Origin: a virus
Reading direction: 5' to 3' (one strand)
DNA: 20,580 nucleotides
IMG/VR virus record: IMGVR_UViG_3300025141_000983
Span: 1 to 20,580 of that record
Shown here: piece by piece, positions 3,365 to 20,580 of the stretch
How the letters are laid out: the number at the start of each line of letters is the position of its first letter
Numbering within the stretch: position 1 is the stretch's first letter
Program-made: the position numbers and the translations under genes
The notes under the pieces: generated by a model
Databases searched by the model: none
Told to the model about the DNA's origin: nothing
Seen by the model: only the letters and a program-made list of their open reading frames with translations

Positions 3365-5407
3365 TTGAAGGCTGAAGAGCAAAAATATTGGCGCGACACG
3401 ATCAAAAACTGTGAGAAATACTACGCGCCCAAGCACGAACGCTGGAAGAAGCTGATTAAAATCTACAACATGGAAATGCAGGTTCCCGGTATGGAATCTG
3501 ATTTCATGGTGAAGATTTCTACCTTCTTTCCGCTGGTTCGGAAGCTGATTGCATCCATCTCATTTAATTATCCGAAAGTTTTTTTAAACGTCGATGACGA
3601 GCCGTTTGAGTATGGGTCGATGGTGCTGGAGCGGTTTGCCAACGAAGCACTCGAGGTGATGGATGTCAAGCCTGAGATCCACCAAACTATTTTTGACGTG
3701 TTGTTCTGCTACAGAGGCTGGCTGAAGATCGGCTACAATACAGCCAACTCCACAGAGGCAGAGGCACCTTACGTTTACAACGATGCATTGCAAGAGGATT
3801 TCACGTTCGTCAAAAGGATTAGCCCGTTCAACATTATGGTAGATCCTCTTGTGCCGCCGAACGATTTTGGCAGCGCACAATACGTGATCGAAAAGATGTT
3901 GGTGCCGCTCAAATTCGCCCAAGAGGACGAACGATTCCAGCAATTTAGACGGCAGTTGACTCCAGTTGCTGCCAGTGACGGCGATTCTACGCTCGACAAC
4001 GTGCTGGTGAACTATTCCAACGGAATGGTAGACACCTCAGAGGAAGAGGACGCCATTGCTGAAGCAAAACGACTTCAGAAAATGGTACTGCTTTATGAGA
4101 TCCACGACCGCGTAAACAAAAAGCGGATCGTTTTCGCAAACGACATTGAGCAGCCTATTGAAGAAATCGAGCACCCTTTCCTTGCACGGACACCCATTAC
4201 ACAGCCTGACCCGTTCAACGCCGAAGAAGTGTTATTGACGGGCGAGTTTAGCGAACCAGAAGGCTGGTTGACAACTAACGGCTTTCCCTATTTCAGTATG
4301 TCGTTTGACATTGGTGACGCCTTCTACGGTGTGCCGCTGATGGAATATGTCAGGGATTCGCAGCAGCTTATTCTGGAGAGCGTATCAAGGCGCGTAGACC
4401 TGCTCAAGAAACACGCACGAATCTCACTGGGCAACAGGGGAGAAAAGACGGCGAATCCCCACCTGCCCGACAGCCTTGGCAATCTTGAAGATGGGTCTGT
4501 ATTGTGGGTTAATGACCCCGGCACTGCACTAAGAGAACTGAATTGGGGCAACCCACCACAGGACCAGATACAGATTGAGCGTGACGCGCAGTTCTACGAG
4601 TCTCGCATCATGTCTGTAGAGGCGCGAAGTTCCAACACGGCAACAGAGGCCAGCATCAACGCATCAGAGGCGCAGCTGAACCGTGAGTGGATGCAAGTAG
4701 CCGTAGTCGATGCCTACGAGTGGATCATCGACAACGCCCTAAGCGTGATGAGCGACCAGAGGTATACGCCCAACGAGTATATCCTGAATATATCACCAGA
4801 GGGCGAACCCATAAGGCTTGCCGCGATTGAGAACTACTGGCTGCAAGGCAGACGCCGCATAGACATAGAAGCAGGGTCGATGCTGCCGCTAATCGAACAG
4901 CTTGAACGTGACGATACGCTGGGATTGTTTGACAGGCTGATACAGTTGCCAGAGGTAGACAGAGGCGAAGCCGTCAAAATGATGATTAAAGCATTCCGCA
5001 AGGTGGACGTGGACACGCTGCTGAAGGATGATCGGAATGCTGATGCAATGAAGGCGGCGCAGATGGAGTTGATGGGCTGGCTGCTACGCGGACAAGATCC
5101 CGGCGTACAGCCTGAAGAGGACCACCAGACACACCTTAAACTCCAATCGCCAGAAGTGGTGCAGCAGAACCCGCAGTTCGCTCAAGTGCCGCCACCGCAG
5201 CAGCAGATGGTATTGGCAGTGGTCCAGCAACACGCACAGCAGCACCGGCAGTTCCTACAGCAGCAAGGCGGGGCCGTTGGCTCTATGAGTGGAACAGGCC
5301 CTGTGGGGCCAGATGACTTGATGTCTCAGGTTCAGAGCAACGCACAGCGTGTTGCAAGCCTCATCAAAACCAACGCCGTTGATTCTCAGAATACGGCCCA
5401 ACTATAA
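3365..5407 (+). CDS. Portal protein
   Basis: A 680-residue protein in the portal position after terminase, matching the long podovirus portals that form the dodecameric DNA entry ring. Diagnostic-looking segments are KISTFFPLVRKLIASISF near residue 50, RISPFNIMVDP followed by an acidic run, FSMSFDIGDAFYGVPLMEY near 315, and the helical SINASEAQLNREWMQ near 435 that would lie in the stem/clip to crown part. The C-terminal ~110 residues are dominated by Gln and Pro (QQQMVLAVVQQHAQQ), resembling a helical barrel or flexible tail. The start is TTG at 3365, chosen because GGGAGA at 3354-3359 is well spaced, the protein begins with a portal-like charged helix, and the ATG at 3360 hits a stop after two codons. 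Start accuracy is moderate; function is confident from context and sequence type. Confidence 0.88.
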   Translation: MKAEEQKYWRDTIKNCEKYYAPKHERWKKLIKIYNMEMQVPGMESDFMVKISTFFPLVRKLIASISFNYPKVFLNVDDEPFEYGSMVLERFANEALEVMDVKPEIHQTIFDVLFCYRGWLKIGYNTANSTEAEAPYVYNDALQEDFTFVKRISPFNIMVDPLVPPNDFGSAQYVIEKMLVPLKFAQEDERFQQFRRQLTPVAASDGDSTLDNVLVNYSNGMVDTSEEEDAIAEAKRLQKMVLLYEIHDRVNKKRIVFANDIEQPIEEIEHPFLARTPITQPDPFNAEEVLLTGEFSEPEGWLTTNGFPYFSMSFDIGDAFYGVPLMEYVRDSQQLILESVSRRVDLLKKHARISLGNRGEKTANPHLPDSLGNLEDGSVLWVNDPGTALRELNWGNPPQDQIQIERDAQFYESRIMSVEARSSNTATEASINASEAQLNREWMQVAVVDAYEWIIDNALSVMSDQRYTPNEYILNISPEGEPIRLAAIENYWLQGRRRIDIEAGSMLPLIEQLERDDTLGLFDRLIQLPEVDRGEAVKMMIKAFRKVDVDTLLKDDRNADAMKAAQMELMGWLLRGQDPGVQPEEDHQTHLKLQSPEVVQQNPQFAQVPPPQQQMVLAVVQQHAQQHRQFLQQQGGAVGSMSGTGPVGPDDLMSQVQSNAQRVASLIKTNAVDSQNTAQL

Positions 5408-5419
5408 AGGCGGCGTCAA

Positions 5420-5815
5420 ATGGCAGGGTTTTTAAATACCAATCAACAGGCTATGATTCCAACGCGTTCTCCCACTGAAGAAGAGTTGCCATCGTTACTG
5501 GCTGCTAAAGAGCAGGAATTGCTTAAAAAAACTGGAGGAAACATGCCCGTTCAACATGCAGTTGTAGGTGGCGTACATAGGGTCATTGAATCAGAATCTG
5601 GACAGCCAGCAATGGGTGAAGATGGCCAGCCGATTGACGGCGGTGGATTTGAAACAGCCGACGAAGCACTGATGGCAGTCAGCCAGATCAACAAGGCTCT
5701 TTACGGCCAAGAGGGACCGCCCAACGGTGCGGCAGCAGCAGCGGGTCCGGCAGCAGGTGGGCCGGGAGACGTGCCGCCAGAAGCTCTTGCAACAATGCTT
5801 CAGCAGATGCGCTGA
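5420..5815 (+). CDS. Unknown small protein between portal and zinc-ribbon gene
   Basis: A 131-residue protein that I do not recognise. The N-terminal half is polar and helical (EEELPSLLAAKEQELLKKTG); the middle has a compact GGVHRVIESESGQPAM stretch; then comes a helix with TADEALMAVSQINKALYG and an Ala/Gly/Pro-rich low-complexity tail ending in a short helix. ATG at 5420 has a GGCGGC-like purine-poor ribosome site, so translation may depend on ribosomes leaving the portal gene 12 nt upstream. Its stop overlaps the next start (TGATG at 5813-5817). Location suggests a head-assembly accessory, but that is only positional inference. Confidence 0.75.
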   Translation: MAGFLNTNQQAMIPTRSPTEEELPSLLAAKEQELLKKTGGNMPVQHAVVGGVHRVIESESGQPAMGEDGQPIDGGGFETADEALMAVSQINKALYGQEGPPNGAAAAAGPAAGGPGDVPPEALATMLQQMR

Positions 5816-6246
5816 TGCCACGCCACGATTATGAGTGTCAGGATTGTGGGCATATAGAACAGGACGTGATTACGCGCAATCTGCCTGACTCATTGCCGTG
5901 CGAATGCGGCAGCGCAATGCACCGCACGTTCGCCAATTTTCATTTCAACGGCCATCTTGACAGCCAGCGCCACAACAAGATGTATGGAAAATTTCACGCA
6001 GGGTTCGGTGAAGTCGTTGACTCCTACGAACACAAACAAGAACTTTTGAAAAAATATGACGTGAGCGAAGCCGCTGACTCTGTTGGCGGTTCCCGCTCTT
6101 GGCGTGATCAGGCACCTGAAAATAAGCAGTCCAAAGAATTCACCCCTGCCATCGACCTGTCGCCAGACGAAGCTCGGCAGATGATGTCAGGAAAAACAAG
6201 CGCATCTCTTGATGCGCGACTCAACAAATATGTAGAGGACATGTAA
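5815..6246 (+). CDS. Zinc-ribbon protein, FmdB-like N-terminus
   Basis: A 143-residue protein starting PRHDYECQDCGHIEQ, with a second knuckle PCECGSAMHRTF. Cysteines 8, 11, 29 and 31 form a CxxC...CxC set able to hold one zinc ion, and the whole first 40 residues match the form of FmdB-type regulatory zinc ribbons. The remaining ~100 residues are polar and helical (DLSPDEARQMMSGK) with no recognised domain. It is translationally coupled to the upstream gene through a TGATG overlap and ends 1 nt before the scaffold gene. Being embedded in the head operon suggests a role in assembly or late regulation; neither is shown by the sequence. Confidence 0.8.
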   Translation: MPRHDYECQDCGHIEQDVITRNLPDSLPCECGSAMHRTFANFHFNGHLDSQRHNKMYGKFHAGFGEVVDSYEHKQELLKKYDVSEAADSVGGSRSWRDQAPENKQSKEFTPAIDLSPDEARQMMSGKTSASLDARLNKYVEDM

Positions 6247-7142: not shown

Positions 7143-8108
7143 GTGGCCGCAGTAACAAGTACCGAAACATGGGATGCCGCTTGGACAACGACAATGAGAG
7201 CGCACAGAAAGCGCCTCACCGACAACGTGTTCGACGAATACCCAACGCTTCAGATGTTCAAGCAAGCCGGGAACATCGAAACGGAATCAGGTGGAAAAGA
7301 AATCAAAGAAGATCTTCTTTACGGCAAGAACTCTGCCGAGTGGTTTTCTGATTACGACACGCTGAACACCGATGCCGTTGATGGCATCACGGCAGCTTTT
7401 TATCCGTGGCGCTATCAGGCCGTGCCGATCACCATTTCGATGACTGAGGAGATGGAGTCGCGCAAGTCTGACGCCGCAGTTAAACTGCTTTCCGCAAAGA
7501 CCGAACAGTCGATGAACACCATCCGCGACAGCATCAACGCGGCGATCTACGGGGCGCAGTCGGGCAAGTCCATGCTCGGGCTTCAGGACATCGTTTCTGA
7601 TTCTGCGGGTTCGACGCTTGCAGGTATCAGCGCGTCAACGAATAGCTGGTGGGACAATCAGCGCAACACGACAAGCACGGACTTCAACAGTTCAAGTGCG
7701 CCGTCTTACGCTGGCGTTCTGGCTCTGTCATCGCTTTACAATAACGCCAGCGAAGGCAACGACCAGATTACTGACATTTTCACGACCCTTTCGCTGTTCA
7801 CAGAATTTCAGGACATCCTGGAAGGCACTGGCTACCAACGACTTACGAGCAATCGTTCACCGTTCGATGGTGGCTTCCCGGCGTTCCGTAACGCCACAGT
7901 CAAATATGATCGTGACTGTGCCAGCCAGCACGCTTACCTGCTGAATCGCAAGTACATGAAACTGAAGATGCAGAGCGGCATGAACTTTGCCAAAACTCCG
8001 TTCAAGGAGCCTGTAAACCAGATGGCGAAAGTCGCATTCATCGTGGTCGGCACACAGCTGACTACCAACAATCGTCGGCGTCACGCTGTGGCAACGACAC
8101 TCACGTAG
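7143..8108 (+). CDS. Major capsid protein (HK97-fold type)
   Basis: A 321-residue protein following the scaffold gene. It has the pattern seen in podovirus and related coat proteins: an N-terminal helix leading to NVFDEYPTLQMFKQAG, a YGKN element, TLNTDAVDGITAAFYPWR near residue 73, then SMTEEMESRKSD and a spine-helix-like KLLSAKTEQSMNTIRDSIN. The middle contains a Ser/Asn-rich stretch (around STSTNSWWDNQRN) consistent with a surface or insertion loop, and the C-terminus has NFAKTPFKEPVNQMAKVAFI, a P-domain-like strand. It forms the icosahedral shell. GTG start with strong ribosome site. No cleavable leader is obvious, in keeping with a separate scaffold gene. Confidence 0.92.
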   Translation: MAAVTSTETWDAAWTTTMRAHRKRLTDNVFDEYPTLQMFKQAGNIETESGGKEIKEDLLYGKNSAEWFSDYDTLNTDAVDGITAAFYPWRYQAVPITISMTEEMESRKSDAAVKLLSAKTEQSMNTIRDSINAAIYGAQSGKSMLGLQDIVSDSAGSTLAGISASTNSWWDNQRNTTSTDFNSSSAPSYAGVLALSSLYNNASEGNDQITDIFTTLSLFTEFQDILEGTGYQRLTSNRSPFDGGFPAFRNATVKYDRDCASQHAYLLNRKYMKLKMQSGMNFAKTPFKEPVNQMAKVAFIVVGTQLTTNNRRRHAVATTLT

Positions 8109-9775: not shown

Positions 9776-10498
9776 ATGACACTGGACAAATGCATTGAAC
9801 TCGCATTGGCGAACGCTGGCTTGTCCAGTGCTGCCGCTACATTCCAGACCAAAGCGCGGGACTATATAAATCTGGGAACAAAAGAAATTTCTGCGGTCAA
9901 GGAATGGCGCTGGCTGTTCGCCGAAGCAACAATTACCACAACCGCCAACACGTCAGAATATGATTTAGCTGACGATGTGATGCATCCAGTTTCGTTTCGG
10001 AATGTCACCGATGATTTTGAAATGCGAATGGTGGACGTGCTGAAGCTGGACCGCATCGACCCTGACACAGACCTGAAATCGGGAGCAGAGAACGCCGCCG
10101 TTGTTAAATGGAACTCCAGCAATACCAACTGGACCGTTCAGCTGTGGCCTACTCCTGACACGAACTCTGAAACAATTAAATATCGATACAGAAAATATAT
10201 TGCCGATTTTACTAGCGCCAACGACTCGTCAGAGTTAGGCGCGTTGGGGTTGCCCGATTGGGTACAGACGGCAGTGATGTATTATGCCGCTGCTAAGATT
10301 ATGCAAGAAAAGCAAGACCCTGAAGGCGCGGCATTGGCGCAGCAGTCGTATGAAAGAATGATCCGTCACTATATGGACATCGACATGAACACAGACGGGT
10401 CACAAGGATGTGTTACTCATCTGCTTCGGAGTGATGCTATGGGGTTTGGAGATTTCACTTTCAAGGTTACTGACGGCACGTTGGCCGTTGCCAGTTAG
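9776..10498 (+). CDS. Head-tail adaptor protein (SU10/phiEco32-like)
   Basis: A 240-residue protein resembling the adaptor that forms a ring below the portal in short-tailed phages. The N-terminal helices (LDKCIELALANAGL, then DYINLGTKEISAVKEWRWLF) are followed by a beta segment with TANTSEYDLADDVMHPVSFR and WTVQLWPTPDTNSETIKYRY, then C-terminal helices (LPDWVQTAVMYYAAAKIMQE). The conserved-looking EWRW and LWPTP elements are what I rely on. The start directly follows the previous TAG, with AGGGG six nt ahead. It should link portal to the nozzle encoded next-but-one. A gp4-like adaptor of P22 is the main alternative naming, with the same role. Confidence 0.8.
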   Translation: MTLDKCIELALANAGLSSAAATFQTKARDYINLGTKEISAVKEWRWLFAEATITTTANTSEYDLADDVMHPVSFRNVTDDFEMRMVDVLKLDRIDPDTDLKSGAENAAVVKWNSSNTNWTVQLWPTPDTNSETIKYRYRKYIADFTSANDSSELGALGLPDWVQTAVMYYAAAKIMQEKQDPEGAALAQQSYERMIRHYMDIDMNTDGSQGCVTHLLRSDAMGFGDFTFKVTDGTLAVAS

Positions 10499-10682: not shown

Positions 10683-12221
10683 ATGGCAATTCGGGGTCAA
10701 TCTGTTCAGGTTGGGCCGTGGACGGGCGGCGTCAATTACGCCGTTCCCGCCGAAGACCTTCAGCCTAACGAATTGTTCTCTATGGAGAACATGCGCGTTG
10801 GTGTTGGTGGAGAAGTTTTTAAGCGTGGCGGCATAGCCACCTACAACTCATCGGCTATCAGTGGCACTCCAACAGTAACCGGACTTGTCGAGCATCGCTT
10901 TTCGGCGTCGAGCTCCAGAGGCTACGTCATCGCCGGGGCAAAGATTTACGAAGACAACCTGTCGGCTTCGTTTACGGATCGCACATCCTCAATGACAATT
11001 ACGGCAGGTGACGACAATACGTTTGCCTTTGCCAACTTTCGCGGCGACCTCTACGCCACCAACGGCGTAGCCGGTGATACGCTGCTTAGAATTACGGCAG
11101 CGGGAAATAACGCGGCGGCAGCAGATGTTGACTCACGTTTTACGACAGCGAAAACCATTGAAGTTTTTGACAATCGCCTCTGGTGGGGCAATTTGTCTAG
11201 TGGCGTCGATCGTGTTTGGCGCAGTGATTTGGCAGATGCGACAGCGTATGGGGCAAACGCCTTTTTTCAAGTCGGCGAAGATGTCACAGCACTAAAGAAA
11301 ATCGGCAACGCTCTCAGCATCCACACCACGGAAAGCATTCACCTTGCTATACCAACAGGCAACGCGGCTCTGCCCTATAAGTTGGTGCAACGTGCAAACG
11401 CTGGATCAGTTGGTGAACGATGCATTGCGAATGTCCAAATACCGGGAAGCGGTGAGGTTGTCATCTACGTTCGAGAGGATGGCATCTATCAGTTCAACGG
11501 TGACGCAGCGCAAAAAATAAGCTGGAAATTAGACGGTGAGCGATATTGGGAGAGCCTGAACAAGGCGCGGCTGCACAAATCCTTCGTTGTCAAATATCCT
11601 AAAAAAAATGAATTGTGGTTCTGGGTTCCGAACGGCACCGACCAGACCACAATGAACCAAGCCATTATTTACGACTATGTGCGGCAGATATGGTACGGCC
11701 CCTTTACTGGAGTCACTAGAAATTGCGGCGCAATTATTAATGACGAGCCGCATTTTGGTGGACATTCGTCGGGCCGTGTTTTTACTCATGAAAGCTCGAC
11801 GCTATCAGACAACAGCGGTTCGGCAACGTCAGGCATTGACGCTTTTTTAGAGACATCCAGCCCCACGCCAATGGGAACGGATGTAATGTTGAGGTGGTTG
11901 TTTTTACGCACATCATTTGACGTGCTTGGAAATTATGATGTATTGGTGACGTTTACTTCTCCCGGCATTGTAGGAGAATCTGCGACAATCAATATGCTCG
12001 GAGGCTTTGACGCTATTGAAACGGCATTTGAAATAGCAGCATCAAGCATTAGTTCCGATGCTAGTCTGGCATCATCAGACACAGATTTAGGGGGCTATGA
12101 CCCCACCATAAAAGTGCGCTATTCAAACGGCAGTAGTGAAGAAGATTTTAGAATCAGACGAGCGTCTGCCGTTTACAAACCTTTAGGGCGTGTCCGAAAG
12201 AGCGGGGCCGGGATAACATAA
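10683..12221 (+). CDS. Tail nozzle / packaged-DNA stabilisation protein
   Basis: A 512-residue beta-rich protein whose form matches the propeller-like tail proteins that close the portal channel (P22 gp10 or SU10/phiEco32 nozzle type). The N-terminus GPWTGGVNYAVPAEDLQPNE with a following ENMRVGVGGEVFKRGG is the typical entry of this group. Repeating beta stretches contain AFANFRGDLYATNG, IEVFDNRLWWGN, WRSDLADATAYGA, GEVVIYVREDGIYQFNGDAA and IYDYVRQIWYGPF, which look like propeller blades. The C-terminal ~120 residues are Ser/Ala-rich beta sequence with no enzyme motif. The stop TAA overlaps the next ATG (TAATG). The role is to attach to the adaptor, hold DNA in the head and form the tail tip. 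Confidence 0.85.
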   Translation: MAIRGQSVQVGPWTGGVNYAVPAEDLQPNELFSMENMRVGVGGEVFKRGGIATYNSSAISGTPTVTGLVEHRFSASSSRGYVIAGAKIYEDNLSASFTDRTSSMTITAGDDNTFAFANFRGDLYATNGVAGDTLLRITAAGNNAAAADVDSRFTTAKTIEVFDNRLWWGNLSSGVDRVWRSDLADATAYGANAFFQVGEDVTALKKIGNALSIHTTESIHLAIPTGNAALPYKLVQRANAGSVGERCIANVQIPGSGEVVIYVREDGIYQFNGDAAQKISWKLDGERYWESLNKARLHKSFVVKYPKKNELWFWVPNGTDQTTMNQAIIYDYVRQIWYGPFTGVTRNCGAIINDEPHFGGHSSGRVFTHESSTLSDNSGSATSGIDAFLETSSPTPMGTDVMLRWLFLRTSFDVLGNYDVLVTFTSPGIVGESATINMLGGFDAIETAFEIAASSISSDASLASSDTDLGGYDPTIKVRYSNGSSEEDFRIRRASAVYKPLGRVRKSGAGIT

Positions 12222-15200
12222 TGGCAAAACGTAAAACATACGCAGAGCGCGTCCGCGAGAATCGAGAGCGGTCGGCGCGAAAACGAGCCGAAACCATTGC
12301 AAAAAAAGGCGGCAATGCCTTTCAAGATTTTTTAGAACAGCAAGAGCAATTCCGCTCTGGGTTGTCAACGCCAGAAACGCGCGAACCAACAGCGGGACAA
12401 AAAGCAAAGACGCGGTTTGCAGAGATACAGGCGTCCGGTGGTGATGCGTTTCAAGATTTCTTGCGTCAGGCGCAGCAGCGCGAAGAGCAGCGCAAAAAAG
12501 CGATACCGAGGACAGCAGAGCAGCGTGTACAAGAGCGTTTTGCAGAGGTACAGGCTGGTGGCGGTGATGCGTTTCAGGATTTTCTGCAAAACAAAGACCA
12601 AACGCGGGTTGGCTTGGCTCCACCTATAGCAGCATCGCAGGAGATGCAACAGCGCACAGGGCCAGTCACTCCTGACATGCAAGCGCAGCTAGATGCGGCT
12701 CAACAACAGCAACAGCAGCAACTAGCGCAATCGCAACAACTAGATCCAAGGATGGCAGCGGCAGCAGCAACAGCACAGACAGGGCCGGGAGGAATACAGG
12801 AGCGGCAGGGTGACGCCACGGGCCAGCCGATGCCGACAGCTGAAATGGTGGTCCCGCCACCCTCAGCCCCCGATCAAGCACAGGCGGCAAAAGATCGCTT
12901 TGCGAGTGTTCAGGCTTCAGGCGGTGATGCGTTTCAAGATTTCTTGAAACAGGCAGAGGCGGTACAAGCAGGTGGCACAGTTGCAGCACCTGCGCCAACT
13001 CCAACGCCTACACCCGCGCCCACGCCTACACCGGCCCCGGCGCCCCCACCAACGGCAGCACCGCCACCACCGGCGCAAAAAGACGCGCCCCCTGTTGTAG
13101 CGCCGCCGCCACCTCCTCCACCTACGCCAGCGCCAGCACCCGCAGCGCCAGCCCCCGCCCCTGCTCCAGCGCCAGCCCCAGCCCCAGCACCTGCGCCCGC
13201 AGCCCCAGCACCGGCCCCGGCCCCAGCCCCGGCGCCCGTAGCAGAGGTTGTGCAACCGCAGGTGGCCCAGCCTCTGCCCGTGCCGCAAGTCGATCCGCTG
13301 GCTCAACAGCTACAAATGCAGCAGGAAGGAACGCGGCAGTTTCTCAATCAATTCGGTCAAGGCCAGCGCAATCGGTTGGCAGTGCAAGCGGCGGGGGCGT
13401 TTAATGAGGCAAGGCGAAATCAACCAATACAGACTCGCTTGCAAGAGACGCTGATGCAGCGGTTAGGGCAACAAGGCCAGCCCGATGCGATGACTCAGGC
13501 TGAGTTGACGCGATTTGGTCAGCAGCGCGACGAAGCTCAAGAACAACTAAAAGCTCAGTTGCAGCAGTTGGGATTGCTCACCGAAGGCGGCGATACAGCA
13601 GAACAATTAGCCAAATTCACAGGCCAGTCCCTGCTCGGTGAGCAGCAAATCATGGCGCAAGGACAACAGCGCGGCGAACGAGCTTTTCAAGATGCGCTTG
13701 GTTTGCTTCAGCAGCGTCAGAGCGGTCGGATGTCCGAAGCGCAGATGCGCCAGATGGAGCAGCAAGCGGGGCTGGCAGAGGGTCAGCTGGGCCTACAGGC
13801 ATTTGGTCAGGCGCAGCAGGGCGCACTGGGTCAGCAGAAGTTGGGACTACAGGAACGCGGACAGATGCTCCAAGAGGAACTGGGGCGCGGACGATTAGGT
13901 CTAGAGACAGAATTAGGCCGTGGCCGTTTGGGTCTGCAAGAGCGCGGACAGATGCTCCAAGAGGAACTGGGGCGCGGACGTTTGGGATTGCAGCGTGAAC
14001 AATTTGGAGAAGGGCAAAGGCAGTTCGATGTCGGACAACGATTCCGAGAAGAAATGGGACGCGGACAGCTTGGATTGCAGCGCGAACAATTCGGAGAGGG
14101 GCGGCGGCAATTTGATGTCGGTCAAGGATTCCGAGAAGAGATGGGACGCGGGCAACTGGGTCTACAGCGTGAGAAGCTTGGAGAAGGACAGCGGCAGTTC
14201 GACGCCACGCAAGGTCTGCGAGAACGTCAGTTTGGAGAAGGCCAGAGACAGTTTGACGCAAGCCAAGGACTAAGAGAGCGCCAATTCGGAGAAGGCCAGA
14301 GACAGTTTGATGTCGGTCAGCAGAGCAGAGAACGACAGCTAGACATTCAGCAAAACATCCAAGAAGGAAACCTTGATCTCGCCAAAAACAAACTGGCAGA
14401 AGATACGCGACGATGGGACATTAACCTTGATCGCGCTGACACGAAAGCCAAAACAGCCCGACGAGATAAACAATACGGCAACATGTTCAAGGTTGGCGAG
14501 TCACTCGGCTTTTTTGATAACGTGAAAAAAGACGGCTTGCTGAATACGTTGGGTGGCATTCCCGGTCTTGGATTCCTCAGAGGCGGCAGTGGCGGCCAGC
14601 AAGGTCAGCAGCAAGGTGGCGGTCAGCAGCAAGGTAACATAAGCCAAGCCCAAATGGATCAATTCCAGACGCTCGTCAATTTGGGCAACGATCCAGCCGC
14701 CGTTGCACAGCAAATGGGTCTGTCAGGTATTCCCGGCGGTGGAGGTGGTGGAGGTGGTGGGCGTTTTGGCGCCCTTTCATCGCTGGCGCGAAATCCAGCG
14801 GTAATGAATGCGGCAGAAACGGCTATAAATTTTATCCCCGGCGGCGGCACGATTCTGGGGGGCATTAAAATGGCCCGAAATCTTCAAAAACTTCCCGGCC
14901 TCAAACACCTAAGCAAATTCAAAGGCAAAGCCGCTAAAAAATTAGGCGGTTGGGCGAAGAAAGGTCTAGGCAAACTCTTTAGCGATGAGGACCTCAAAGA
15001 GGGCATTACGCCCATAAATGATGACCAGCTATTGAGCACGCTAACACAGACACCTGTCAGTTCGTGGAATTACAAGGGCGATAACAAAAAACACATCGGC
15101 CCAATGGCTCAAGATTTCGCAGCGTTCGGCACCGATACCAATGAAGGTGGCACCCGCACCATCGACGTGGTAGACGCCTTTGGCGTGAACTTTGCGGCCA

Positions 15201-15277
15201 ACCGTGCTTTGGCGAAGAAGCTCCAGCAGCAGCAACGCGAACTAAAACAGATCCGCAATAAAGGATGGTTTAACTAA
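12221..15277 (+). CDS. Large repetitive virion protein with C-terminal S74 self-cleaving chaperone domain
   Basis: A 1018-residue protein coupled to the nozzle gene by TAATG and opening the likely ejection-protein block. In order: a basic N-terminus; four GG(N/D)AFQDFL motifs (near residues 30, 73, 114 and 234); a Pro/Ala-rich linker (~255-345); a long Gln-rich helical part with repeat array (~546-707); a Gly/Gln-rich linker; a Gly-rich and then basic amphipathic segment (~848-920); and a C-terminal ~98 residues starting SDEDLKEGITPI with HIGPMAQDFAAFG and NFAANRALAKKLQ. The last part matches Peptidase_S74 intramolecular chaperones. Ser 921 and Lys 926 are spaced five apart, as are the Ser and Lys of the endosialidase dyad, predicting cleavage after residue 920. 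It is more likely an internal or ejection protein than a fibre because of its position and helical composition. A tail fibre is the alternative. Confidence 0.8.
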   Translation: MAKRKTYAERVRENRERSARKRAETIAKKGGNAFQDFLEQQEQFRSGLSTPETREPTAGQKAKTRFAEIQASGGDAFQDFLRQAQQREEQRKKAIPRTAEQRVQERFAEVQAGGGDAFQDFLQNKDQTRVGLAPPIAASQEMQQRTGPVTPDMQAQLDAAQQQQQQQLAQSQQLDPRMAAAAATAQTGPGGIQERQGDATGQPMPTAEMVVPPPSAPDQAQAAKDRFASVQASGGDAFQDFLKQAEAVQAGGTVAAPAPTPTPTPAPTPTPAPAPPPTAAPPPPAQKDAPPVVAPPPPPPPTPAPAPAAPAPAPAPAPAPAPAPAPAAPAPAPAPAPAPVAEVVQPQVAQPLPVPQVDPLAQQLQMQQEGTRQFLNQFGQGQRNRLAVQAAGAFNEARRNQPIQTRLQETLMQRLGQQGQPDAMTQAELTRFGQQRDEAQEQLKAQLQQLGLLTEGGDTAEQLAKFTGQSLLGEQQIMAQGQQRGERAFQDALGLLQQRQSGRMSEAQMRQMEQQAGLAEGQLGLQAFGQAQQGALGQQKLGLQERGQMLQEELGRGRLGLETELGRGRLGLQERGQMLQEELGRGRLGLQREQFGEGQRQFDVGQRFREEMGRGQLGLQREQFGEGRRQFDVGQGFREEMGRGQLGLQREKLGEGQRQFDATQGLRERQFGEGQRQFDASQGLRERQFGEGQRQFDVGQQSRERQLDIQQNIQEGNLDLAKNKLAEDTRRWDINLDRADTKAKTARRDKQYGNMFKVGESLGFFDNVKKDGLLNTLGGIPGLGFLRGGSGGQQGQQQGGGQQQGNISQAQMDQFQTLVNLGNDPAAVAQQMGLSGIPGGGGGGGGGRFGALSSLARNPAVMNAAETAINFIPGGGTILGGIKMARNLQKLPGLKHLSKFKGKAAKKLGGWAKKGLGKLFSDEDLKEGITPINDDQLLSTLTQTPVSSWNYKGDNKKHIGPMAQDFAAFGTDTNEGGTRTIDVVDAFGVNFAANRALAKKLQQQQRELKQIRNKGWFN
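12308..12946 (+). repeat. Four copies of a GGDAFQDFL motif in protein
   Basis: Copies end at nt 12334, 12463, 12586 and 12946. The last three share a 17-residue unit R-F-A-x-[IV]-Q-A-x-G-G-D-A-F-Q-D-F-L; the first has only the second half (GGNAFQDFL). Separating sequence differs in length and content, so the motif itself is what is conserved. Confidence 0.85.
12985..13245 (+). repeat. Pro/Ala/Thr-rich low-complexity stretch
   Basis: In-frame GCN-CCN codon runs encode alternating Pro-Ala with some Thr and a block of consecutive Pro. The DNA is C-rich on the + strand and strongly purine-rich on the other, with nested short repeats. The protein part should be an extended, stiff linker between the N-terminal motif region and the helical repeat region. 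Confidence 0.85.
13856..14310 (+). repeat. Helical repeat array with 87-nt then 54-nt period
   Basis: A 38-nt sequence at 13856-13893 recurs exactly at 13943-13980 (87 nt apart). The GEG[QR]RQFD element then begins at 14006, 14093, 14180, 14234 and 14288, spaced 87, 87, 54 and 54 nt. The GGAGAAGGCCAGAGACAGTT element at 14234 and 14288 is identical. In protein terms these are 29- and 18-residue units rich in Gln, Arg, Glu and Gly. Confidence 0.85.
14981..15274 (+). other. S74 intramolecular chaperone domain (part of the 12221-15277 gene)
   Basis: Residues 921-1018. It opens with the Ser-Asp-x-x-Leu-Lys signature, has a KHIGPMAQDF strand at the position of the usual GxxAQE element, and ends in a long helix. 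In endosialidases this domain trimerises the upstream chain, then cuts itself off at the Ser. Cleavage here is predicted, not shown. Confidence 0.75.
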
Positions 15278-18799: not shown

Positions 18800-20580
18800 G
18801 TGGGAACCATATCAAGACAATATAGCTTCGTCGCTGGAGCGATTCCCAGTGCCGCAAACTGGAACGCAGATCCAAATAATTTTATTACGCTCGTCAATGG
18901 GCAACTCGACGAAGCCAATGTAGACTATTCATCGGCAGACGGGATTGCTACGCTACAGAATACGCAGACGCTCTCCGGCGCCAAGACGTTTTCGAGCGCC
19001 AGCGGCACGACTTTTAACTACGGCGTTACAATTAACGAAGGCAGCAACGACAGCGACACGCGCATCGAAACGAACAATATGACACACGCGGTCGTTGTTG
19101 ATGCGGGGTTAGACGCTATCTCGTTTGGCGCAGCAGCGGTGGATGATTCGTTTGTGCAAATTGCTAAAGGCGCGTCCACCAGCACGGCGACACAGAATAC
19201 CTATCACCTGTCAGTCGCTCCCGGCGGGGCAACGACGATCCCGTCAGGCACCACTGCCTATGTCGGCAGCGTGAACATCAACGAGCCAAATATCACGGCA
19301 ACCGGGACCGTCACCAATGCGTTCACCGTTCGCATCGCTGGCGCACCGACAGAGGGCAGCAGCACCAACTATGCACTGTGGGTGGATGCAGGTGCTACGC
19401 AACTCGACGGGGCCTTGAGTGTCGGTGTAGATGGTACCGGCGCAGATGTCACGTTCTACGGTGACACGTCAGGCAAGCAAGCCTTGTGGGACCAAAGCGA
19501 AGACACGCTACAGCTAAACGACAACACCAACCTGACATTCGGCACAGGAGCGGACGCTGACATTTTCTACGATGGCACAGACCTGAACATATCCCCTGCC
19601 GTGGTTGGGTCTGGTGACATCGTCGTGAACGGTGCGTCGATGGAGTTTGCTGACTCTGAGGGCGTGACATTTGGAACAGGCAAGGACGCGACGATTCAGT
19701 TTGACGGCTCCAACACCGTATACAACACAGCTGGCTACCACTCGTTTACGGGCGGGGACCTCCACGTAGGAAATGGTCAAGGCCTTGTCGTCGGACACAC
19801 AGCACAGTTGGCAGTCGATTTCACCCCGGAAACACAGATTCTTGGATCGGCTGTTCAGGACGCTTCGATGCTAATGGCCGATTTCCAAGCGACCACCAAT
19901 AGCCCTGTTCTTGGGATGCTGAAGAGTCGTAACGGCACCATCGGGTCGAACACGATTGTGCAGGACGGCGACCAGATTGGGACGTGGGTTGGCTACGTCG
20001 ATGATGGGACCGACTATGCCAGCAAGGCGGCACAAATTCTGATGTCTGTTGACGGTACGCCGGGAGCGAATGACACGCCGGGGCGCATCACGTTTTTGAC
20101 GACAGCAGACGGTGCCGCATCCCCCACAGAGCGTATGCGTATCGACAACACCGGTGCTATCACGAAACCTACGAATCCCTGCTTTTCGGCGTTCTCTGCC
20201 ACGCAGAGCAACGTCACTGGGGACGGGACCACCTACACCATGACGTATACCACGGAGATTTTTGATCGAGGAGGCGACTTCTCTAGTGCTACGTTTACGG
20301 CACCGGTGACAGGGATTTATCAGCTGACAATGCTCCTGAACATTTCGGGCCTGACATCGTCACACACAGACACCCGCATCACGCTGGTGACGAGCAATCG
20401 GTCGTACAACCTCATGATTGAGGACGCTGTATCCTCTGACGTGGCGGGGTTCGTGCGGACGACATTCACCATTTTAGCCGACATGGATGCCTCCGACACC
20501 GCCACGGTAACGGTCCAGACGAGCAACGGGACTAAGGTTGTAGACATCGACACGGGCAACGGCTTCATGGGCCATCTGGT
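18800..20580 (+). CDS. Fibre-like protein with C1q/TNF-like end, 3' end missing
   Basis: The frame runs from GTG 18800 to the window end without a stop (593 codons visible). Residues ~1-30 (ISRQYSFVAGAIPSAANWN) resemble the attachment end of podophage fibres. A long beta-rich shaft follows, with TLSGAKTFSSASGTTFNYGV, RIETNNMTHAVVV, and paired TFGTGADADIFYDGTDLN (residue 246) and TFGTGKDATIQFDGSN (residue 290) modules 44 residues apart. A domain near 340-450 contains GDQIGTWVGYVDDG and MRIDNTG. From ~459 the sequence FSATQSNVTGDGTTYTMTY, DFSSATFTAPVTGIYQLTM and ILADMDASDTATVTV has the pattern of a C1q/TNF-like jelly-roll head, which commonly trimerises and binds ligands. It likely mediates host contact. 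Hand counts show higher GC than the two genes before it. Confidence 0.82.
   Translation, partial: MGTISRQYSFVAGAIPSAANWNADPNNFITLVNGQLDEANVDYSSADGIATLQNTQTLSGAKTFSSASGTTFNYGVTINEGSNDSDTRIETNNMTHAVVVDAGLDAISFGAAAVDDSFVQIAKGASTSTATQNTYHLSVAPGGATTIPSGTTAYVGSVNINEPNITATGTVTNAFTVRIAGAPTEGSSTNYALWVDAGATQLDGALSVGVDGTGADVTFYGDTSGKQALWDQSEDTLQLNDNTNLTFGTGADADIFYDGTDLNISPAVVGSGDIVVNGASMEFADSEGVTFGTGKDATIQFDGSNTVYNTAGYHSFTGGDLHVGNGQGLVVGHTAQLAVDFTPETQILGSAVQDASMLMADFQATTNSPVLGMLKSRNGTIGSNTIVQDGDQIGTWVGYVDDGTDYASKAAQILMSVDGTPGANDTPGRITFLTTADGAASPTERMRIDNTGAITKPTNPCFSAFSATQSNVTGDGTTYTMTYTTEIFDRGGDFSSATFTAPVTGIYQLTMLLNISGLTSSHTDTRITLVTSNRSYNLMIEDAVSSDVAGFVRTTFTILADMDASDTATVTVQTSNGTKVVDIDTGNGFMGHL

Follow-up and report, generated by a model that had tools for sequence, protein, structure and literature searches.

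S74 chaperones are usually read as a mark of tail fibres. The window spans an entire IMG/VR virus record (20,580 bases) and holds a podovirus structural block; here, the product of the gene at 12221-15277 ends in such a domain and stands in an ejection block. This locus raises the question of which role an S74-ended protein has at that place.

Gene order and ejection slots

The S74-bearing gene is closely joined to both neighbors. Its ATG overlaps the stop codon of the P22/SU10-like nozzle gene, and its own stop codon overlaps the ATG of the next gene (Table 1). Further upstream, a small protein is encoded at 5815-6246 between the portal and capsid genes; we take its start to resemble a Cys4 zinc ribbon. 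The two genes behind the S74-bearing gene encode 459 and 720 aa and fit ejection slots two and three, because P22 gp20 and gp16 measure 471 and 609 aa (gp7, 229 aa) in a review table (literature facts throughout are drawn from excerpts of PMC10386132, PMC9144972, PMC8954989, PMC10052179, PMC4992974, PMC8326128, PMC7824862 and PMC3909814). By gene order and sizes, the S74-bearing gene occupies the P22 gp7 slot, ahead of the gp20-like and gp16-like genes. The gene context thus upholds the position between a nozzle and two ejection-type genes that was assigned by the sequence-only reading, an earlier note made from this DNA alone. Among relatives of the 459-aa protein, the nearest (L097:3-7468; L-numbers denote fetched loci of related viruses) has slots one and two ahead of the nozzle gene, and its slot one is without S74.

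Table 1. Features of the window and loci with the PAPS-reductase-like gene.
Feature	Position or loci	Strand	Basis or remark
Portal-like gene	3365-5407		name by position only
Major capsid protein	7143-8108		phrog_9953
SU10-type adaptor	9776..10498	+	PF24175, 68.5 bits
Nozzle / P22 gp10-like	10683..12221	+	phrog_3287 'virion structural protein'; 28 % match to 'phage stabilization protein'
S74-bearing protein, 1018 aa, first ejection slot	12221..15277	+	open ORF
N-terminal part, four copies GG[DN]AFQDFL / GGNAFQDFL (residues 30, 73, 114, 234)	12308..12970	+	
Pro/Ala-rich stretch, residues 251-356 (P 44 %, A 30 %)	12971..13288	+	composition
Core common to S74-less sister slot-one proteins, residues 402-481, motif LGLLxxGGDTA	13424..13663	+	hhalign
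Gln/Arg/Gly-rich helical-looking repeats (GRGxLGL, RQFD), residues 555-735	13883..14425	+	similar repeats in L135
Gly-rich, then basic amphipathic end, residues 840-920, net +13	14738..14980	+	
Peptidase_S74 / intramolecular chaperone (ICA) domain, residues 921-1018	14981..15274	+	profile, fold
Predicted self-cleavage site between F920 and S921, with catalytic Lys926	14981..14998	+	dyad spacing as in MyRF and endoNF
Predicted long C-terminal helix, residues 983-1013	15167..15259	+	model; trimerising helix in MyRF
Second ejection slot, gp20-like, 459 aa	15277..16656	+	relatives in Mx8, CRP-901, MW202867; size as P22 gp20
Third ejection slot, 720 aa	16626..18788	+	relative in L135; gp16-like in size
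Separate tail fibre gene, incomplete at the record end	18800..20578	+	phrog_18345, E 1.8e-33
S74-less loci with PAPS-reductase-like gene, about 3.2-4.6 kb	L264, L265, L267, L268, L272, L273, L276, L278-L281, L284, L294, L295		

The C-terminal S74 domain

The S74 domain on the 12221-15277 product is genuine. Residues 921-968 match Pfam Peptidase_S74 with an E-value of 1.8e-9 and 38.2 bits, above the curated cut-off of 22 bits, and the DNA-level match at 14981-15124 scores 43.5 bits. Ser921 and Lys926 (Lys at +5) are both in place, and F920 directly precedes the serine. In the PDB, a profile of 69 sequences detects tail fibre 8jov, MyRF 7dc3 and neck appendage 3gud, with E-values from 1.7e-9 to 2.4e-8 (MyRF and neck appendage at 2.4e-8); a PDB search with the whole protein returned only low-complexity Pro/Ala-rich matches. 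Residues 841-1018 were modelled as a monomer from the 69 sequences; across most of the S74 part the mean pLDDT is about 80-96, with one S74 block at 69, and it falls below 60 upstream of S921. The best four VIA-align matches of the model are all ICA domains (MyRF, Z 6.4; endosialidase, 5.8; T5 L-shaped fibre, 5.3; neck appendage, 5.1), which are modest values in absolute terms, and the next unrelated match has a Z of 3.2. MyRF and endosialidase are also the top two Foldseek matches, with E-values of only 0.008 and 0.17. Profile score, dyad and fold together make a chance match very unlikely and confirm the C-terminal S74 domain with Ser921 and Lys926 that had been proposed from the letters.

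In the excerpted MyRF work, S587 and K592, equivalent to S911 and K916 of endoNF, are indispensable, the cut falls before the serine, and trimerisation is driven by the C-terminal helices. A Ser or Cys with Lys at +5 lies near the model start in 114/114 S74 hits of the fetched loci (112 Ser and 2 Cys). In L075:4327-5799 and L088:6954-8285, the catalytic Ser is replaced by Cys and the Lys at +5 is retained. The retention of the pair in every hit speaks against an S74 domain that stays uncut as a permanent trimerisation domain of a virion protein, as do the S74-less homologues described below that end exactly at P1, and we regard this arrangement as very unlikely. The tag on the 12221-15277 product most likely cuts itself off after folding.

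The chain upstream of S74

The composition of the upstream chain bears out its description as Gln-rich and Pro/Ala-rich. Residues 1-250 contain 17 % Gln and 17 % Ala, residues 357-500 contain 25 % Gln, and residues 500-760 contain 18 % Gln and 17 % Gly. Directly ahead of the predicted cut, residues 840-920 consist of 25 % Gly and 14 % Lys with a net charge of +13, and residues 903-920 have the top hydrophobic moment of the scanned stretch (0.53). Charge and moment therefore agree with the basic amphipathic end that the sequence-only reading had placed there. Coiled-coil heptads were sought in residues 501-770 and rejected, because no periodicity of 3.5 or 7 was found (best period 3.63, weak).

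By composition only, a beta-rich stalk before S74 is absent. The window protein has values of 0.48 for QAERKLM and 0.43 for TSVIYNDG, compared with 0.51 and 0.43 in the helical S74-bearing set and 0.27 and 0.64 in 12 fibre-type S74 proteins, so that in this composition it resembles the helical set, unlike the fibre type. The mean hydropathy before the cut is +0.47 in the helical set (n 83, which leaves out L046, L071 and the window) versus -0.22 in the fibre type (n 12). A hydrophobic pre-cut tail was rejected as a general rule, as the window departs from it with a score of -0.48 over its last 25 residues.

In the lineage of the window, S74 is a portable module, since the window has it and its sisters do not. 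In sisters whose nozzles are 34-40 % identical, the slot-one proteins measure 980-1312 aa, and S74 is found in slot one in 0/9 of the loci with a complete ORF, three of which encode the same 1292-aa protein. One sister group shares a core with window residues 402-481 (hhalign E 1.1e-5, 33 % identity, probability 82 %). L135, which has related repeats, is without S74 and has a terminal segment that is hydrophobic and rich in Gly, and the near-identical contig L184 breaks off inside the Pro/Ala-rich stretch. Since the sisters are without S74, the evidence on exact ends comes from other families.

S74 in slot one of other podoviruses

The sequence-only reading had set S74 at this place against its best-known position on tail spikes and fibres; the combination is not unusual, as it recurs in many podoviruses and is already present in PHROG families. 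Eighty loci were fetched through the family of the 459-aa gp20-like protein alone. An upstream ORF is present in 78 of the 80, directly adjacent in 68, and 63 of these neighbors are distinct; eight of the 63 end in S74, a count that excludes the S74-bearing ORF of L168, 323 bases upstream. In a Pfam scan of the whole records, S74 was found in 16/80 (11/50 plus 5/30), some of them on fibres. In Mx8, p54 ends in S74 and lies upstream of a relative of the 459-aa protein with one small gene between, and the slot-one counterparts of the Roseobacter phage CRP-901 and of MW202867 carry no S74. S74-less slot-one proteins tend to have a hydrophobic tail (mean +0.37 versus -0.25 for the whole protein, n 55), which parallels the S74-bearing ones before the serine. 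A peptide-pattern search with the C-terminus of the window protein alone gave no close relatives.

The S74 part is only 66-75 residues in Mx8 p54 (L004:7034-8035) and in the slot-one ORFs of L128, L136, L137, L140, L147 and L172, and parts of this length seem to be without the long C-terminal trimerising helix. The 1030-aa slot-one protein at L046:5172-8264 has two tandem S74-like Ser-Asp-x-x-x-Lys openings.

The S74-bearing slot-one relatives match phrog_4287 'DNA ejection protein', phrog_6121 and phrog_8003, and in L137 and L128 a phrog_598 'DNA ejection' domain is joined to S74. The recurrence thus covers several slot-one families that match different PHROGs. These names bear on an alternative in which the window protein is a tail-tip protein, plug or needle that sits below the nozzle as a trimer, undergoes fibre-like maturation by S74 and stays outside the capsid. 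The gene does lie directly behind the nozzle, trimeric tail proteins typically end in S74 (hits include a tail fibre and a neck appendage), and tail-fibre PHROG families match too, mostly through the S74 part. However, the slot and the two following genes match ejection blocks, a separate fibre gene follows, and the PHROG names of the S74-bearing slot-one proteins are DNA ejection or virion structural protein. A tail-tip protein is therefore rather unlikely, and less likely than an ejection protein given the slot and the PHROG family names. The earlier hypothesis of a trimerised internal or tail-tip protein survives in its S74 domain with a cleavage-competent pair on a non-fibre, helical-looking protein, whereas its tail-tip option loses ground.

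S74-less Bcep22-like homologues mostly end at the predicted cut

A natural experiment in Bcep22-like phages supplies the strongest of the new evidence: there, S74-less homologues end at the residue before the predicted scissile serine. The Bcep22-like S74 protein follows a nozzle-like gene and an acetyltransferase and precedes the ejection genes. With its helical part as the query, BLAST recovers Burkholderia phages in which that gene is without S74; in these phages, S74 matches are confined to other genes further upstream. One of these S74-less forms, JC1 gp64, was detected in virions by mass spectrometry according to the excerpted report. Its C-terminus reads GTVAGAGIMAF and then stop; the Itty13 counterpart reads GTVAGLGMMAF up to the predicted cut and continues with SSKELKE. 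End-points were compared in 41 loci retrieved with only the helical part as query, of which 24 carry S74 and 17 lack it. Relative to the predicted scissile bond of the nearest S74-bearing relative, the offset is 0 in 19 of 20 distinct S74-less rows (for example, L264 versus L263), which include five named phages and many near-duplicates. The exception, L302, diverges earlier. The Rhizobium homologue RHph_TM27A, left out of the 20, is without S74 and has a different tail whose end is not at the cut. In other families, S74-less ends lie at +2 (L099 versus L137), +1 (L125 versus L136), +7 (L152 versus L140) and +14 (L100 versus L140), and most remaining pairs are uninformative, as the alignment stops before the cut. 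The Bcep22-like ends argue that the mature protein of these phages would end right before the serine.

A PAPS-reductase-like gene lies directly behind slot one in 14/14 S74-less loci (L302 apart), compared with 0/14 S74-bearing loci and 0/8 named S74-bearing phages. The name is a motif reading, and the gene is so annotated in four of the five named relatives; the DC1 counterpart is annotated phosphoadenosine phosphosulfate reductase. A tree of the sample fetched by the helical part, which leaves out L302, requires at least 3-4 changes of S74 state; an earlier tree was built mostly from S74-fetched rows and is hence biased. The swap may be one old cassette moving by recombination, and since a single exchanged 3' cassette is possible, the end-point offsets do not count as independent events.

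Exact ends would also arise from fusion of a domain at its own boundary. Ordinary domain shuffling, with S74 added at a domain boundary that the exact ends mark and with no ejection-specific role, would suit the patchy occurrence of S74 in the fetched loci, its lack in the sisters and the cassette exchange with the PAPS-reductase-like gene. Such shuffling appears most improbable given the conserved catalytic pair and the recurrence in the same slot across several slot-one families.

Proposed role of the S74-bearing protein

These results point to a likely answer, in which the 12221-15277 product is an ejection-block protein that fills the P22 gp7 (T7 gp14) slot and trims off its own S74 chaperone before virion entry. 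It would be made with a C-terminal S74 intramolecular chaperone, and three chains would meet via the S74 domain and the C-terminal helix, after which the upstream helical chain would assemble. The Ser921/Lys926 pair would then cut between F920 and S921 and shed the 98-residue tag. The product of residues 1-920, with its basic amphipathic end, would enter the virion and later take part in DNA ejection, and so probably helps push viral DNA into bacteria. We infer the trimer, cleavage, virion location and ejection role. More tentatively, S74 may be a swappable, self-removing end-guard under which the membrane-active C-terminus of a gp7-type protein stays inert and pre-assembled up to the cut; untagged phages would reach the same end by a stop codon, with the PAPS-reductase-like gene replacing the tag in Bcep22-like phages.

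Ejection-block proteins that end in S74 are often annotated 'tail fiber domain', here and in many podoviruses. In the excerpted LASTA/SJM3 study, mutations in such a gene are discussed as tail fibre changes. A search of open-licence PMC papers found no description of S74 on ejection or internal virion proteins; the nearest statement, in the excerpted jumbo phage review PMC7824862, is that fibres, spikes and other low-complexity proteins make use of S74. The combination of S74 with an ejection-block protein is already known from database families; new are how large and repeat-rich the window member is and the evidence of exact ends in homologues that lack S74. If the tag self-trims, it offers an easy test of how ejection proteins stay folded before packaging, together with naturally occurring homologues, tagged and untagged, that share a mature end.

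Comparison with known systems

P22 gp7 and T7 gp14 occupy the same slot as the window protein, ahead of gp20-like and gp16-like proteins that are similar in size, but they have no S74 and no detectable sequence match to it. The gp7 role is accordingly suggested by position. Homology to P22 gp7 was not supported by profile comparison (hhalign probability 0.1 % against a gp7-like set, with the best alignment on the LGLLxxGG motif); hhalign against the Mx8-type set gave 4 % and an E-value of 0.0097, with reversed and off-core controls at 0.015-0.48. The window protein has no match to phrog_598 or phrog_4287. In the excerpted literature, P22 gp7 also undergoes trimming by a protease, which acts at the N-terminus.

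The window domain has the same fold, dyad spacing and C-terminal helix as the ICA/S74 domains of endosialidase, T5 fibre and MyRF. In contrast to these proteins, its upstream chain is Gln/Gly-rich and helical-looking, with no beta-helical stalk, and the gene sits in an ejection block. Mx8 p54 and the phrog_6121 and phrog_4287 proteins likewise end in S74 before a homologue of the 459-aa protein, but they are mostly about 280-450 aa and several have a short S74. The Bcep22-like slot-one proteins (POI1126 gp26, Itty13, Parlo gp78, LASTA, PEp14 and SopranoGao; phrog_8003) measure about 390-490 aa and have a hydrophobic Gly/Ala end, whereas the window protein is 1018 aa, repeat-rich and basic amphipathic at its end; BLAST returned no match outside S74. 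Common to both is a helical protein that ends in S74, with the nozzle before it and the ejection genes after it.
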